Positions 2,756 through 46,320 of a DNA stretch of 64,000 nucleotides are shown in pieces. Within the stretch, counting starts at the first letter, position 1, and each line of letters begins with the position of its first letter. Position numbers and translations under genes: made by a program. This stretch comes from Psychrobacillus vulpis (GTDB lineage: Bacteria > Bacillota > Bacilli > Bacillales_A > Planococcaceae): the NCBI RefSeq assembly GCF_006861825.1, contig NZ_VDGI01000005.1:78724-142723 (forward strand), written 5' to 3'. The notes below the pieces were generated by a model. The model was not told the DNA's origin, ran no database searches, and was given only the letters and a program-made list of their open reading frames with translations.

Positions 2756-2832
2756 TTCTGTTATATATTAAATTACAAGAAAACAAACTGTTATGGAACA
2801 GTATAAAAGTCATATTTTTTCAAACAGTTTAT
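2756..2832 (+). promoter_or_regulatory. candidate LytTR boxes upstream of aceA
   Basis: The region holds CTGTTAT twice (2757-2763 and 2788-2794), the palindrome ACTGTT-ATGG-AACAGT (2787-2802) and a further ACAGTTTAT (2824-2832). LytTR proteins such as AgrA bind repeats resembling ACAGTTAAG, so these are plausible sites for the divergent LytTR regulator. Spacing differs from the classical pair, so confidence is limited. Confidence 0.4.
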
Positions 2833-2857
2833 TCGTCAAATGAGAGGTGTGTTGAAC

Positions 2858-4141
2858 ATGTCAACAAGACAACAACAGTTGGAACAGTTACAAATGGAGT
2901 GGGATAAAGAAAGCCGATGGAAAGGAATTGAGCGTCCTTATTTACCAGAAGAAGTGATTAAACTTCGAGGATCATTACAAATAGAACATACACTAGCTCG
3001 AAAAGGTGCAGAGCGTTTATGGAATTCACTACAAAAAGCAGATTTTATTAGTGCCCTTGGAGCTTTAACGGGTAATCAAGCAGTGCAACAAGTAAAAGCT
3101 GGACTTCAAGCAATTTATTTGAGCGGGTGGCAAGTAGCTGCAGATGCAAACCTTTCTGGGCAAATGTATCCGGATCAAAGTCTTTACCCAGCAAACAGCG
3201 TGCCAGCGGTTGTGAAACGTATTAACCAAGCATTGCAACGTGCTGATCAAATTGATCAAGCGGAAGGTAGAGAAGATCAGTTTGACTGGTTTGCACCTAT
3301 TATTGCTGATGCGGAGGCAGGTTTCGGAGGACCCCTTAATGTGTTCGAACTAATTAAAGGAATGATAGAAGCGGGAGCAGCGGGTGTCCATCTTGAAGAT
3401 CAACTTGCTTCAGAAAAGAAATGCGGTCATCTTGGTGGAAAAGTTCTTCTTCCAACACAAAACGCCATTCGTAATTTAATAGCGGCTCGATTGGCAGCAG
3501 ACGTTTCTGGAGTACCAACTGTATTAATCGCACGCACTGATGCGGATGCGGCAGATATGGTAACAAGTGATATTGATCCGCGCGATCATGCGTTTATAAC
3601 GGGAGAAAGAACTCCAGAAGGATTTTTTCGAACGAAACCAGGAATTGAACAAGCGATTGCTCGAGGCTTGGCATATGCGCCTTATGCAGACTTAATATGG
3701 TGTGAGACGTCTCATCCAAGCTTAGAAGAAGCAAAGCAATTTGCCGATGCGATACATGCGGAATATCCTGACAAGATGCTTGCATATAATTGCTCACCAT
3801 CGTTCAATTGGCAAGCAAACTTAGATGAAGAATCAATAGCTAAATACCAAGTGGAGCTAGGTAAAATGGGTTACAAGTTTCAATTTGTTACACTTGCGGG
3901 CTTCCATTCATTAAATCACAGTATGTTTGAGTTAGCACATGATTATAAAACGAATGGAATGGCTGCTTATTCGAAGCTACAGCAAGCGGAATTTGCAAAC
4001 GAAGCGAAAGGTTATACAGCTACGAAACATCAACGTGAAGTAGGAACAGGATATTTTGATGAAGTATCACAAGTGATTTCTGGTGGAACATCTTCTACTA
4101 CAGCAATGAAGGGGTCTACGGAAGTCGCACAGTTCGCTTAA
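2858..4141 (+). CDS. aceA: isocitrate lyase
   Basis: Isocitrate lyase splits isocitrate to glyoxylate and succinate, the first step of the glyoxylate shunt used for growth on acetate or fatty acids. The family signature KKCGHLGGK is present, with the catalytic Cys at about residue 189; upstream are [15 protein letters not shown] (metal/substrate site) and downstream [10 protein letters not shown] and ECSP-type loop [11 protein letters not shown] 2858 is preferred over the in-frame ATG at 2840 because AGAGGTG lies 8 bp before it, giving 427 aa, normal for the bacterial enzyme. Malate synthase follows 22 bp later, forming an aceA-aceB operon. Confidence 0.97.
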
Positions 4142-4163: not shown

Positions 4164-5756
4164 ATGGAACAGCTAACCGCTAGAAACATAGAAATAGTTG
4201 GGCTAGAAACCGATGCAAGTCGAGAGATTTTAACGCAAGAAGGATTAGAGTTTTTAGCTTCACTTCATCATTTATTTAATGAAAGAAGAAAAGAGTTATT
4301 AGATAATCGTCAAGTACGTCAAAAACAATTAGACAATGGAGCTAATCTAGATTTTCTTTCGGAAACGAAAGAAATTAGAGAGGAAGATTGGACGATTGCT
4401 CCTCTTCCGAAAGATCTTCAAGATAGAAGAGTAGAAATTACAGGCCCTGTGAATCGGAAAATGGTCATCAATGCATTGAACTCAGGTGCTAAAACATTCA
4501 TGGCTTGTTTCGAAGATGCCACTTCGCCAACTTGGGAAAATATGATTGAAGGTCAAGTGAATATGCGCGACGCAGTTCGTAGAACAATTTCCTTTCAACA
4601 GGAAAACGGTAAAGTATATAGTTTGAATGATGAAGTAGCAGTACTGATGATTCGTCCAAGAGGCTTGCACTTGCTTGAAAAGAATGTACTCATTGATGGG
4701 GAAGCAATAGCTGGTAGCTTATTCGATTTTGGATTATATTTCTTCCATAATGCGAAAGAATTATTAGCTCGCGGTACAGGTCCTTATTTCTATTTACCAA
4801 AGCTTGAGAGCCACTTAGAGGCTAGACTTTGGAACGACATTTTTCTTTTCGCAGAACAACAACTTAGTTTACCAAACGGAACGATTAAAGCTACTGTATT
4901 AATCGAAACAGTTATGGCTGCATTTGAGATGGATGAGATTTTGTACGAACTACGCGATCATTCTGCAGGGCTAAATTGCGGTAGATGGGATTATATTTTT
5001 AGTTATATTAAACGGCTACGCAATCAAGCCGAAGTTATTTTGCCAGATCGCAGTCAAGTGACAATGACGTCCCCTTTTATGAGGGCATACACCCAATTAT
5101 GTATTCAAACATGTCATCGAAGAAATGCACCTGCAATTGGAGGAATGGCGGCCCAAATTCCGATTAAAGGTGATGACATTGCTAATGAAGCAGCATTTTC
5201 AAAAGTCCGTGAAGACAAACGCCGAGAAGCAAAGGATGGTCATGATGGAACGTGGGTCGCACACCCAGATCTTGTACGAGTAGCATGGGAAGAGTTTGAA
5301 GAGCATATGTCAACACCGAACCAAATTCATCGTAAACGGGAAGATGTGCAAGTGGAAGCGAAGCATTTATTAGAAGTCCCACGCGGCACTATTACAGAGG
5401 AAGGCCTCCGATTAAACTGCAGTGTAGGTGTTCAATATATAGCCTCTTGGTTACGTGGAAATGGAGCAGCACCTATTAATCACTTAATGGAAGACGCCGC
5501 AACTGCTGAAATTTCCCGCACGCAAGTTTGGCAGTGGATTCGTCATCCAGAAGGAAAGATTGAAGATGGCCGTAAAATTACCGAAGAGCTAGTGCAGGAA
5601 GTTTTACAGGAAGAACTAAATAAATTGAAAGAAATGTTTGGTAGTAACAACTATGCAAATGGACGTTTTGATGAAGCAGTTGAGCTATTCCTTTCATTAA
5701 CTTGCAAACAAGATTTTGTTGAATTTCTAACTTTGCCTGGTTATGAAAAACTATAG
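4164..5756 (+). CDS. aceB: malate synthase A
   Basis: Malate synthase condenses glyoxylate with acetyl-CoA to give malate, completing the glyoxylate shunt begun by the isocitrate lyase upstream. It has 530 aa, the length of the A isoform. Recognisable stretches are [20 protein letters not shown] with FEDATSPTW, the conserved [31 protein letters not shown], and [10 protein letters not shown]; the catalytic Asp region near the C-terminus ([18 protein letters not shown]) is intact. AGAGGGGG precedes the ATG. The stop codon overlaps the ribosome binding site of the following zinc-ribbon mini gene. Confidence 0.97.
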
Positions 5757-5768
5757 GAGGTGATTTGC

Positions 5769-5891
5769 GTGAAAACAACAACTCAGGAAGTAAAAACAAA
5801 GCACTGTCGCGAATGTGGATGTGTTATTCATGAACAAGTAGAATCATCCTTATACGAATGCGAACGATGCATAGGCATGAGCGAAGAATAG
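5769..5891 (+). CDS. yhfH: YhfH-family mini zinc-ribbon protein
   Basis: A 40-aa ORF starting with GTG, missed by a 60-aa length cut-off. It has two CxxC knuckles: CRECG...IHEQVESSLYECERC. The pattern CxxCGxxIxEQxES...CxxC is that of Bacillus YhfH, a small protein of unknown role thought to bind zinc. TAGGAGGTGAT overlaps the aceB stop and lies 7 bp before the GTG, so it is translationally coupled to aceB and shares its terminator. Gene symbol rests on family resemblance. Confidence 0.75.
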   Translation: MKTTTQEVKTKHCRECGCVIHEQVESSLYECERCIGMSEE

Positions 5892-12812: not shown

Positions 12813-12905
12813 CTTCAACTAACAGAGGCTTTACTTGAAGATCATTGAGTTGTTTAGAGAGCTCTTTTTACTTATTCAAGTTAAATGGGCAGGTTAATTC
12901 AACAA
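12813..12905. repeat. palindromic dispersed element, copy A
   Basis: CTTCAACTAA...TTTACTTGAAG, then ATCATTGAGTTGTTTAGAG with AGCTCTTTTT, then TTATTCAAGTTAA...GGGCAGGTTAATTCAA. Two inverted repeats flank a terminator-like centre. Same plan as the copy at 13333, with partial copies at 16385, 18586, 22272 and 26541. Confidence 0.65.
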
Positions 12906-13332: not shown

Positions 13333-13425
13333 TTATTCAACTAACGTAGGCTTTATCGGAAGATCATTGAGTTGCTAATGCAGCTCTTTTTTTGTTCAAC
13401 TAAAAGGGGCAGGTTAGTGGAATAA
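13333..13425. repeat. palindromic dispersed element, copy B
   Basis: TTATTCAACTAA-CGTAGGC-TTTATCGGAAG, then ATCATTGAGTTGCTAATGCA with GCTCTTTTTTT, then TTGTTCAACTAAAAGGGGCA followed by GGTTAGTGGAATAA. This is the clearest full-length copy and may also terminate the cupin gene. The following stretch to 13597 also has an inverted repeat GGGGCAT...ATGCCCC (about 13465-13498) of unknown meaning. Confidence 0.7.
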
Positions 13426-16378: not shown

Positions 16379-16384
16379 TTTTTC

Positions 16385-16415
16385 TTGTTGAACTAAAGGG
16401 GCAGGTTAGTTGAAG
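16385..16415. repeat. palindromic dispersed element, partial copy C
   Basis: TTGTTGAACTAAAGGGGCAG followed by GTTAGTTGAAG: the right-hand inverted repeat of the family only. It abuts the broken end of bioB. Confidence 0.7.
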
Positions 16416-26433: not shown

Positions 26434-26540
26434 AATTAGCCTCGCATCGCGAACCCTGGAGATATTTTAGAATACAAAAGTGATGAAGAAACTCAAGAAT
26501 GATAGACCAAAAATTTCTTCAGTAACAGTTAATTACTTAA

Positions 26541-26601
26541 TGATTATTGAGCTGTTTATACAGCTCTTTTTTTATTCAACTAAAGGAGAAGGTTAGTTGA
26601 A
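26541..26601. repeat. palindromic dispersed element, copy F
   Basis: TGATTATTGAGCTGTTTATA then CAGCTCTTTTTTT (stem GAGCTG/CAGCTC 26549-26566, a terminator), then the inverted repeat TTCAACTAA-AGGAGAAGG-TTAGTTGAA (26575-26601). Confidence 0.7.
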
Positions 26602-43559: not shown

Positions 43560-43722
43560 GTTCATCACCCCTATATTTGCTCTGTAGAAATTATGTTGTA
43601 TATCTAGTTTGCAAAGAAACTAAATGAACCATAACACACAAACCTAAAAACTTTCTAAAATATGTATGAAAAATCCCTAAACAACGAAGAACAGATAATC
43701 CAAGGGATTATTTTACGCGTTC

Positions 43723-44124
43723 ATGAAAGTAATTTCTCTAGTTAATGTAAAAATAAGGGAATGGCATGAATGGGCAGGATATCATAGCGAAAGTCTTAGT
43801 CCTACTTTAACCACTAATAAAGGTGAAGGTAACAAGATATTAATAAAGCCTGATTGGATACCAGGGCCCTTTGATATTTCAAAGACTTTAAGGACAGGTG
43901 GGAAAAGCAGTTTAACAGCAAAACATGCTTATGATATTGTTGCTGTTTTAACTCCTGATAGAGAAGACAAAAGACAAAATGGAAGGCGAATTAAAGAACC
44001 CGGAGATCCAATGTTCACATTAACAGGACAAGATAGACATGGTGTGATGATTAAGGAAGCTACAACCAAAGGGTTCGAAGTAGCTGTTCTTAGAACCGAA
44101 GAATGGACATGCCATTCAGAATAA
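43723..44124 (+). pseudogene. C-terminal fragment of a phage-type DNA cytosine methyltransferase
   Basis: This gene encodes 133 aa. SLSPTLTTNKGEGNKILIKP, LRTGGKSSLTAKHAYDIVAV, then DREDKRQNGRRIKEPGDPMFTLTGQDRHGVMI are typical of the target-recognition and C-terminal part of phage Dcm-like enzymes. The catalytic PCQ, ENV and SAM-binding motifs are absent, so it cannot methylate. It runs into a fragment of ssb, consistent with a decayed prophage. Confidence 0.65.
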
Positions 44125-44253
44125 CAGCACGGGGAATCAACCTCAACAGAATAATCAGCAGTTCAATCAAACTAATTATACGAGAGTCGATGAAGATCCT
44201 TTTGCAAGTAATGAAGTGCCTGTTGAAGGACGGATGATGACCTGCCGTTTTAA
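44120..44253 (+). pseudogene. ssb: C-terminal fragment of single-stranded DNA-binding protein
   Basis: The frame from 44120 reads NNSTGNQPQQNNQQFNQTNY then TRVDEDPFASNEVPVEG, a typical SSB linker. After a frameshift before 44233 it ends GATGATGACCTGCCGTTTTA-A = DDDLPF-stop, the conserved SSB tail that binds partner proteins. The OB-fold is missing. Not part of a living gene. Confidence 0.75.
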
Positions 44254-44373
44254 GTACAAGTACATTCTTTGCCTGGCATCACATCCCGTTGAAACTTATT
44301 ATAGGCATGCACCTATGTTTCCTTTGAAGAGTATCTTATAGTTGATAACACTCAAATAACTGGAGGGGATAAC

Positions 44374-45156
44374 ATGGGATACTTTGTTACAGTTGAGCAT
44401 GGAGTAAATATATATGTAGAGGATATAAACCCAGAGGGTAAGAAAACAATACTATTTATACACGGTTGGCCATTAAATCATAATCAGTTTGAATATCAGT
44501 TTAATGTTCTTCCTGCAATGGGATATCGTTGTATTGCCATTGACTGGAGGGGGTACGGTAATTCCGATAAACCAATCAGTGGCTACAATTTTGACAGATT
44601 GGCAGATGATGTTCATGTAGTAATAAGTACATTGCAGTTAAAAGATTTCACGCTTGCAGGACACTCCACAGGAGGGGCAATCTCAATTCGATATATGGCT
44701 AGATATCAAGGCTATGGCGTTTCAAAACTTGTCCTAATAGACGCTGCATCACCGTCTAGTATACAAAAAGAAGTAGCAAATACGTTCATTACTGATACAC
44801 TTAATGATCGCCCTAAAATGTTGCAGGGACTAACGGACATTTTCTTTTTCCAGTATATTACTGCCCCATTATCTGACTGGTTCTTTCAGCTAGGATTACA
44901 AGCAGCGGGCTATTCGACTGCTGCGGTCATGATGTCATTGAGAGATGAGAATGTGTACAATGATCTTGGTAAAATATTAGTTCCTACACTAATTATTCAC
45001 GGCATACATGATAAAGTAGTTCCGTTTAATAAAGCACAAGAAACAAACAAATTAATAAAAAATTCACAGCTCGTCCCATTTCAATACAGCGGCCATGCTC
45101 CTTTTTATGAAGAACGTGACAAGTTTAACCAGCTACTAATACAATTTATTGGATGA
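44374..45156 (+). CDS. alpha/beta hydrolase
   Basis: This gene encodes 260 aa: oxyanion HGWPLNHNQFEYQF, nucleophile elbow GHSTGG (Ser ~98), acid in HGIHDKVVP and catalytic His in YSGHAPFYEERD, all of the alpha/beta-hydrolase fold. DWRGYGNSDKP is typical of the chloroperoxidase/esterase-like branch. Substrate unknown. CTGGAGGGGAT 6 bp before the ATG. It is intact although it sits between prophage fragments, so it may have been carried or inserted there. Confidence 0.88.
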   Translation: MGYFVTVEHGVNIYVEDINPEGKKTILFIHGWPLNHNQFEYQFNVLPAMGYRCIAIDWRGYGNSDKPISGYNFDRLADDVHVVISTLQLKDFTLAGHSTGGAISIRYMARYQGYGVSKLVLIDAASPSSIQKEVANTFITDTLNDRPKMLQGLTDIFFFQYITAPLSDWFFQLGLQAAGYSTAAVMMSLRDENVYNDLGKILVPTLIIHGIHDKVVPFNKAQETNKLIKNSQLVPFQYSGHAPFYEERDKFNQLLIQFIG

Positions 45157-45333
45157 TAATTTATTTTCTTATCTTGTGGAATTTTCCTTTTAGTAAAAAA
45201 TCAACATTAAACGATAAAAGAGCCAAATAAAAGGGGTGAAGTGGATGGAAATAATCACAAACTATATGGATTTATGCAGGAAGCTAGATATTATTGAAAT
45301 GCAGTTATTACAGGATGGTTAAGTGGTTATAAT

Positions 45334-45669
45334 AACTATCTAGTTACTTCACCAACTGGTACCGCAACAGGATTTGGTGCTACTGTTTTAATTATAGATG
45401 ATTTAATTAAAAACTCCTTAGAACAATGCTTTAACGCTCAAAAAACATTGGGATTGGTTTACAAATACAATGCTCTCACGTCTTGAAGAAGGCGGTAAAA
45501 TCATCTTAATTATGACAAGATGGGCAAGTAATGATTTGGCAGGAATGGCACTTTATCATTTCAAGGATAAGAAAAAACAGTTCGACACGTGCTTATGAAG
45601 GCATTACAAGATGACGGCTCGATTTTATGTCCTACTGTTCTATCAAAGGATAGCTACGATACTTGCTAG
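45334..45669 (+). pseudogene. broken phage large-terminase gene
   Basis: Three frames in succession give terminase-like pieces: NYLVTSPTGTATGFGATVLI then IDDLIKNSLE (45334 on), HWDWFTNTMLSRLEEGGKII then LIMTRWASNDLAGMALYHF (from ~45456), and VRHVLMKALQDDGSILCPTV then LSKDSYDT (from ~45585). LIIDD is the Walker-B segment and TRW the coupling region of phage terminase ATPases. At least two frameshifts and no N-terminal Walker A or nuclease part. Confidence 0.7.
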
Positions 45670-45709
45670 CTTGATAAGTGACAATATAGAAGAATAAAAT
45701 AAATAACAG

Positions 45710-45742
45710 AGGCACAGAAACAGTTTACTAGTTTCTGTGCCT
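45710..45742. terminator. inverted repeat hairpin
   Basis: AGGCACAGAAAC-N9-GTTTCTGTGCCT, a 12-bp perfect stem. T-rich DNA on the plus side (TTTAATAT). Possible terminator; it stands between prophage remnant and tandem repeat. Confidence 0.55.
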
Positions 45743-45764
45743 TTAATATGGATGTTGCTACTAC

Positions 45765-45890
45765 ATCGCTCAATCTTTGCCAACAATCGCTCAATCCTCA
45801 GCAGGAATCGATCAATCCTCAGTGGAAATCGATCAATCAATGCTAACTAACGATCAATCCCCAGCAGAAATCGCTCAATCATTCAAAAGG
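45765..45890. repeat. tandem repeat, six units of 21 bp
   Basis: Units begin at 45765, 45786, 45807, 45828, 45849 and 45870, exactly 21 bp apart. Core ATCGATCAATC or ATCGCTCAATC, followed by a variable CTCAGCAGGA-like part. No spacers, so not CRISPR. The last unit supplies the stop codon of the truncated ogt frame. Confidence 0.85.
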
Positions 45891-46168
45891 GAACGACCTG
45901 CTGTTCTTTCATGCTCAAGGAGCCATTCTTTTCTCCATAAACCACCCGCATAACCAGTTAGTTTTCCGTTAGAACCGATTATTCGATGACAAGGAATAAC
46001 GATGCTTAGTTTATTTTTCCCGTTTGCACTACTTACTGCACGAATCGCTTTTTCATTTCCAATTGCAACAGCAATATCTTTATAAGAACCGGTTTCAACA
46101 TTTTTTAGATAAATCAAAAAAATAAATAGACTAGTGTGGTTGGAAAGTGTTATTCTTTTATCGACCAC
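45875..46168 (-). pseudogene. ogt: truncated methylated-DNA-protein-cysteine methyltransferase
   Basis: This gene encodes 97 aa, of which residues ~24-90 match the C-terminal domain of Ogt/[41 protein letters not shown] (active Cys in PCHR) and [19 protein letters not shown]. The normal ~85-residue N-terminal domain and the start of the active-site domain are replaced by an unrelated hydrophobic stretch. A lone C-terminal part is unlikely to work, though the acceptor Cys remains. Confidence 0.75.
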
Positions 46169-46229
46169 ACTGGTCTAATTTTGTGTTGTGAGAAATAAGA
46201 TAATGACGAGGGAGCTGAAATAGCTTTAC

Positions 46230-46320
46230 TTCCTATTAAACGAGCTTGCGCAGGAGTACCTCGCACGAAGCGTTGCGAAGGAGAAGACTAGGCCCTCGCC
46301 AGCGGAAAGCGAATGCCAGG
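46230..46320. repeat. GC-rich dispersed repeat, copy 5 (diverged)
   Basis: CGAGCTTGCGCAGGAGTACC...GGAGAAGACTAGGCCCTCGC...CAGCGGAAAGCGAATGCCAG. Words AGGAGT, GAAGAC and GCGGAAAGCG recall copies 1-3. Its end runs directly into the TetR start region. Confidence 0.5.

Follow-up and report, generated by a model that had tools for sequence, protein, structure and literature searches.

Phages often integrate near the 3′ ends of protein genes. For Psychrobacillus phage PVJ1 (MZ983385), the published description reports integration at the 3′ end of deoD, with duplication of a 42-bp core (PMC8779076). The minus strand of PVJ1 carries a cytosine methyltransferase gene (4459-5769), two small genes, ssbA (3451-3942), the 56-aa gene h4 (3241-3411) and h3 (2826-3215). 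For integrons in Firmicutes, the IntegronFinder 2.0 survey lists a single complete one and a few CALINs (PMC9024848).

Here we describe a phage relic in a 4.02-Mb draft genome of Psychrobacillus (G000). The window, that is, the whole stretch of 64,000 nucleotides that was analysed, corresponds to contig C44:78724-142723; the assembly is a draft, and the joints of the relic are known from the assembled contig. An earlier note on this DNA had read the locus as a decayed prophage in which broken methyltransferase, SSB and terminase pieces surround an intact hydrolase gene. Searches with PHROGs, tblastn and Pfam and comparison with PVJ1 DNA bear out this inventory. Two further features, absent from the note, must be added: 45225-45314 is the start of the phage gene h3, and fragments of opuAA flank the insert left and right. 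We propose, with a probability of about 0.65, that the 3′ end of opuAA holds a fragment of a temperate, PVJ1-like Psychrobacillus phage, and that the hydrolase gene is cargo from the ssb–h3 gap of that phage.

Layout of the relic

The features of the locus are as follows (window coordinates).

43569-43685, no strand given: upstream region of a histidine-kinase gene, kept in G009, G010 and G016; the opuA operon follows there in G009
43690-43725, plus: remnant of opuAA (betaine ABC transporter ATPase), ending at residue 384; GIILRVH is an exact codon match at 43704-43724
43726-44085, plus: internal segment of a DNA cytosine methyltransferase gene from a phage, with a frame shift near 43780
44084-44253, plus: C-terminal part of a phage ssb gene, its DDDLPF-stop displaced to another frame
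44282-45224, plus: hydrolase unit (leader, gene, tail), common to other genomes
44374-45156, plus: intact alpha/beta hydrolase gene, 260 aa, Ser98-Asp213-His241, predicted arylesterase/non-heme haloperoxidase type
45225-45314, plus: ribosome-binding site and first 23 codons of phage gene h3, ATG at 45245
45315-45659, plus: interior piece of a terminase large subunit gene, in three frames
45660-45697, plus: 3′ end of opuAA, 12 codons plus stop, (V/I)LASLISDNIEE
45704-45744, plus: probable remnant of the opuA transcription terminator, from alignment with G009
45904-46096, minus: truncated ogt (O6-methylguanine methyltransferase gene), another eroded gene of the locus

A terminator scan did not detect the probable opuA terminator remnant at 45704-45744. 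The locus is eroded at several points: ogt is truncated (45875-46168), and the GGDEF-EAL neighbour present in G003 is missing. Five tandem units of 21 bp lie 3′ of the opuA remnant at 45767-45881 (CGCTCAATC / CGATCAATC), and stretches resembling them occur on contigs C1, C4, C9 and C55 of the same genome. The TetR gene is preceded at 46258-46318 by a dispersed repeat, about 61 bp long, that recurs at 41 further places in the genome (84-87% identity).

The split opuAA gene

The insert divides opuAA 12 codons before its stop, with both halves in register: to the left GIILRVH corresponds to residues 378-384, and to the right (V/I)LASLISDNIEE-stop to residues 385-396. The ATG of the first ORF in the earlier note (43723) is itself opuAA sequence. 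The insert is preceded by CATG and followed by TACTTG, where five relatives have CATGTA or CACGTA, and compared with these relatives opuAA has lost or gained 0 bp at the insert. At the left edge, the methyltransferase reading, traced by eye and allowing gaps, comes within a few bases of opuAA; at the right edge, terminase homology enters opuAA with a 2-base overlap (TA).

The opuA operon is well defined in relatives. The intact opuAA product of G009 scores 425 bits against TIGR01186 (proV; cut-off 326.6), and its operon partner matches Pfam OpuAC at E 1.8e-57. Gene order in G009 is kinase, opuAC, opuAB, opuAA and, one gene on, an EAL-type gene as judged by its sequence; in G003 it is opuAC, opuAB, opuAA, GGDEF-EAL gene, ogt, TetR and ABC transporter. 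Of these genes, opuAC, opuAB and the GGDEF-EAL gene are missing from the window, along with most of opuAA; a part of ogt remains. Among 19 genomes of the genus, G000 alone has no opuAA-type protein at E 1e-100 (best 99 of 129 candidates). Close opuAA homologues (at least 90% identity) are found in 13 of the 19; the six genomes without one include G000, and in G001, G008, G013, G016 and G018 the sole match is a paralogue of about 50%.

Since no opuAA base is missing or duplicated at the joints and both edges of the insert lie inside phage genes, the relic does not fit a prophage left to rot between att sites, and the term decayed prophage, taken strictly, is not supported: interior phage sequence meets the opuAA halves without loss or duplication. 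It is rather unlikely that a complete prophage was integrated by its integrase in the opuAA 3′ end and then decayed, with deletions that ended exactly at both att borders. The place itself would suit such an event, integration at 3′ ends being common and opuAA being split 12 codons before its stop. A further parallel is the use by PVJ1 of the deoD 3′ end with its 42-bp core (PMC8779076). However, the joints carry no duplicated core, whereas borders made by an integrase require a common core at either end; interior methyltransferase and terminase sequence abuts opuAA on either side, and two independent deletions would both have had to stop at an exact border. The att-like flanking repeats that the earlier note suggested looking for were sought around 43.5-46.3 kb; no direct repeat of 12 or more bases pairs the two borders, and a duplicated att core is absent from them. 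A tRNA att site was rejected, as the window contains no tRNA. Capture of a phage fragment thus fits better than decay of a prophage between att sites.

Phage gene pieces

The methyltransferase piece matches PHROG 8411 (unknown function) at E 5.6e-20 and PHROG 16427 (DNA methyltransferase) at E 3e-4, and tblastn at E 1e-3 finds it in 148 phage records. It had been taken for the C-terminus of a Dcm protein; it is instead an interior piece, aligning to residues 220-320 of a 368-aa frame or to residues 315-371 of 478, and the homology 5′ of 43780 lies in a different frame. The SSB tail was identified correctly: the ssb piece is frame-shifted ahead of DDDLPF-stop, runs to the natural gene end and shows 82% and 76% DNA identity to PVJ1 ssbA over two stretches. 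The same is true of the terminase large subunit in three frames, which match PHROG 30251 at E 1.4e-11, 1.2e-22 and 3.4e-6; this too is an interior piece, with 81% DNA identity to the intact terminase gene of a prophage in another Psychrobacillus (G010). The h3 piece (45225-45314) is 79% identical in DNA to PVJ1 3235-3146, and with its 25-aa query PVJ1 is the sole protein match among 50,697 phage records (E 4e-4, limit 10). Pfam gives no match for any phage piece of the relic, and among the frames of 43699-46174 neither Pfam nor PHROGs gives a match to an integrase gene.

The four pieces lie on one strand and in phage order, an order that the earlier note had claimed for the three it named; synteny with PVJ1 supports this, the order methyltransferase, ssb, h3 on one strand being common to PVJ1 and the relic. 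In PVJ1 the ssb–h3 gap contains no hydrolase gene; in the relic it is occupied by the hydrolase unit. Three IMG/VR contigs (L244-L246) have ssb followed by h3 with no hydrolase match between them, one with an h4 match in the gap. Psychrobacillus G005 has two ssb–h3 copies without hydrolase; h4 is present in one of them, and in the other the gap is about 60 bp. No intact phage with the order ssb, hydrolase, h3 was found among the phage records, IMG/VR and genome loci searched.

Comparison of all the pieces with PVJ1 gave matches for ssb and h3: tblastn finds no match between the PVJ1 methyltransferase and the window piece, and the terminase piece has no DNA match in PVJ1. With homology to PVJ1 partial, we call the relic a mosaic that is PVJ1-like, rather than PVJ1. 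The best phage relatives differ by piece, namely the G010 prophage for terminase, PVJ1 for ssb and h3, and other phages for the Dcm piece. In the stretches searched, the G010 prophage has ssb and terminase and lacks h3 and such a methyltransferase; no single phage was found that carries all four pieces. The earlier note had held that matches to unrelated sources would speak against a common phage origin. This is partly what we see, in that the best matches fall to different phages. The pieces are consistent with one mosaic phage, itself not seen among the phages compared.

A donor copy of the phage pieces elsewhere in the window genome was also considered, and none was found at the DNA level (best 40 of 175 candidates). 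Beyond repeats, the matches within the genome are an ssb gene (71% DNA identity) and a hydrolase paralogue (60% aa identity), again among the best 40 of 175 candidates.

The hydrolase gene

The hydrolase is intact with a catalytic triad, as previously described: it matches Pfam Abhydrolase_1 at E 3.2e-30, and Ser98, Asp213 and His241 align with the triad of PDB entry 5h3h, its best solved relative (E 9.5e-62), which is followed by arylesterases and haloperoxidases. None of the best 25 of 36 NCBIfam models reaches its cut-off. By fold family and triad, the predicted enzyme is of the arylesterase/haloperoxidase type.

Between G000 and G016 the hydrolase gene has dN 0.028, dS 0.195 and dN/dS 0.145, and three genes of the same locus have dS 0.77, 0.89 and 1.02; against P. 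soli, the hydrolase has dS 0.58 and dN/dS 0.119. These dN/dS values span the whole history of the gene and not just the time since the phage decayed. The gene is under purifying selection, and its low dS together with its low dN/dS indicates that it was selected and moved between G000 and G016 after their lineages had split.

The leader of the unit is conserved across genomes, and a promoter scan of the block gives no more hits than shuffled sequences. In the tail, the window copy has lost a terminator-like hairpin of several relatives; the window and G016 have in common a tail variant right after the stop that is absent from the other copies listed. In 27 relatives, homology to loci outside the same neighbourhood stops within about 230 bp before the start and about 180 bp after the stop; G001, G006, G007, G013 and G015, of the same genus, have longer flanks in common with one another. 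At least 72 of 261 family genomes match the block, mostly the hydrolase, in DNA at E 1e-20 (two candidates scored per genome), and relatives, some only 25% identical, are encoded at 76 named genome loci. All 722 plasmid records fall below 60%, so that none is a close copy. That the hydrolase is a typical phage gene is rejected, with identity of at most 32% in four phage records at E 1e-10. The sole hydrolase match in IMG/VR starts 10 bases from a contig edge.

In two other genomes the hydrolase is followed by remains of h3. The G016 copy (C1:1531373-1532152; 93% DNA identity to the window copy) lies at a different chromosomal place, and codons 52-117 of h3 start 8 bp past its stop. The h3 copy there gives a match to sigma-70 region 4 that is weak and falls short of the Pfam cut-off. 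Upstream of this hydrolase is an 87-aa frame that appears to hold an integrase-like C-terminus, for which Pfam gives no confirmation. The P. soli copy (locus L170, genome G008; 86% aa identity) lies at a third chromosomal place, and h3 residues 28-32 and 35-66, in two frames, start 13 bp past its stop; residues 35-66 match at E 1.3e-8 in a small search and at 2e-4 over all 76 loci. This remnant, directly 3′ of the hydrolase (L170 6784-6913), adjoins what are presumably Ku- and LigD-like genes. Because the surviving part of h3 differs in each genome (1-23 in G000, 52-117 in G016, 28-66 in P. soli), the G000 piece cannot be compared with the others. The three differing places with differing parts of h3 indicate that hydrolase and h3 were likely neighbours in a phage.

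An h3 match is found 3′ of the hydrolase at 3 of the 28 loci examined closely (the window and 27 relatives), namely in the window, G016 and P. soli. An ssb match upstream of the hydrolase is absent in both G016 and P. soli, and P. insolitus (G004, hydrolase 88% aa identity) has no h3 beside its hydrolase. Matches to ssb, h3, h4, terminase and the Dcm piece are absent at 75 of the 76 named loci (E 0.01, flanks up to 6 kb a side); P. soli is the single exception, and at E 1e-4 no locus of the 76 has a match.

These non-phage contexts are what would be expected had the hydrolase been inserted, by another route, into a phage remnant already decayed, which was the second option of the earlier note. 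We nevertheless regard late insertion as improbable, because hydrolase followed by h3 recurs at three places in three Psychrobacillus genomes with different deletions, and because the right edge of the unit is the point at which phage homology resumes, with the ribosome-binding site of h3 kept. The same note had named, as an observation against phage origin, a hydrolase at this site in strains without phage traces. Copies without phage traces exist elsewhere (75 of 76 loci), but none was seen at this site in another genome. Its first option, a phage cargo gene kept by selection, agrees with the synteny with PVJ1, the hydrolase–h3 pairs at two other loci and the dN/dS values.

Origin of the relic

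The order ssb, hydrolase, h3, together with the hydrolase–h3 pairs at two other loci, makes it most likely that the hydrolase rode a PVJ1-like phage. A break in the chromosome may have taken up the phage DNA as a fragment, sealed in by end joining rather than by an integrase, Ku being encoded in the window genome (E 5.6e-58). Deletions, before or after capture, would have left the four gene pieces. With its own leader and ribosome-binding site, the hydrolase gene could have survived the death of the phage genes around it; its product, a putative small cytoplasmic esterase, may have been kept for the benefit of the host. That unrelated scraps came together by chance, or that the contig is an artefact, is very improbable: the best relatives do differ between pieces and the genome is a draft, but four pieces stand in phage order on one strand and the opuAA halves are in register.

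The locus is a phage relic with a probable cargo gene, most likely captured in the tail of a transporter gene. It is an ordinary but well-resolved relic, in which a mobile esterase-like gene appears to have persisted after its phage was lost; this is seen at three places in the genus, one of them in the tail of a lost compatible-solute transporter.

Repeat arrays in related genomes

The tail 3′ of the hydrolase in G036 holds a repeat that is found in 11 of 12 genomes searched, matching at least 23 times in the window genome and at least 41 times in the richest of the others (up to 40 candidates scored per genome). An 87-nt consensus has at least 40 matches in the window genome (best 40 of 121 candidates). 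Copies of the 87-bp repeat lie in the window on the minus strand at 12814-12902, 13336-13422 and 26533-26601, with a partial copy at 16379-16414.

One-way arrays stand behind small genes in G016, G093, G149 and G150. Twelve stretches, mostly copy-rich, were chosen after the shared orientation had been noticed, and in the nine of them that were counted every one of the 48 copies with 60 or more matched bases points the same way as the others of its stretch. An ORF ends within 200 bp of 34 of the 48 copies, at a median distance of 18.5 bp and on the opposite strand in 32 of the 34. Intervals between copies contain exactly one ORF in 15 of 39 cases and two to sixteen in the rest. One repeat array includes a tyrosine recombinase gene (L261:7271-8110 in G149; Pfam Phage_integrase E 5.2e-40), which runs against most of the ORFs around it.

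The arms of the repeat pair equally well as attC or as local hairpins (83.2% of cells each, 45 copies). A shuffle control slightly favours the attC-like pairing (5 versus 32 of 500 on the covariation score), and in the terminal hairpin 5 of 7 pairs show changes on both sides; folded singly, two of five copies fold better than shuffles. Given the equal fit of both models and the two of five single folds, the fold is not proof of attC. The core boxes differ at one position from the attC consensus. No integron integrase exceeds the TIGR02249 cut-off in any of 261 family genomes, the best match reaching about 100 of 265 bits. The repeat occurs within about 400 bp of the hydrolase at 7 of 13 loci scanned, window included, nearly full-length at L126, L129 and L133 and partial at the other four; it is absent beside the window (E 1e-3), G016 and P. 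soli copies.

In their sequence features, the arrays resemble CALIN arrays (attC clusters without an integrase). A less probable reading is that Psychrobacillus and related genera of its family hold attC-like cassette arrays with no recognisable integron integrase, the hydrolase being a mobile cassette that was captured by a temperate phage and left in three chromosomes. If so, Bacillota would hold a large gene-cassette system, without an integrase or differently driven, with gene traffic to and from phages. The one-way arrays, observed here behind small genes in several genera of a single family, contrast with the IntegronFinder 2.0 survey. Our searches, as far as they reach, found no literature on such arrays in Bacillales. 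The arrays may matter more than the relic and deserve a study of their own.

Comparison with known systems

Integron CALIN arrays are matched in related genomes by co-oriented 87-bp repeats near gene ends, with nested inverted arms and a covarying terminal hairpin; the window hydrolase, by contrast, has no attC-like site after the gene. As a protein, the hydrolase has full-length matches to 5h3h and the arylesterases 3hea and 1va4 (E 9.5e-62 to 8e-36). The G010 prophage region (L049) resembles the relic in having ssb upstream of terminase and a terminase gene with 81% DNA identity, but its reading frames are intact and the stretch has neither an h3 nor a hydrolase match. PVJ1 has a different methyltransferase and a gap without hydrolase; like the relic, it has a methyltransferase gene upstream of ssb and then h3, in the same orientation, with 76-82% DNA identity for ssb and h3. 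Finally, unlike phage morons (cargo genes), the hydrolase has been found beside h3 in three relics only; like them, it is a single intact gene, complete in itself, and it would have sat between two genes of a phage.
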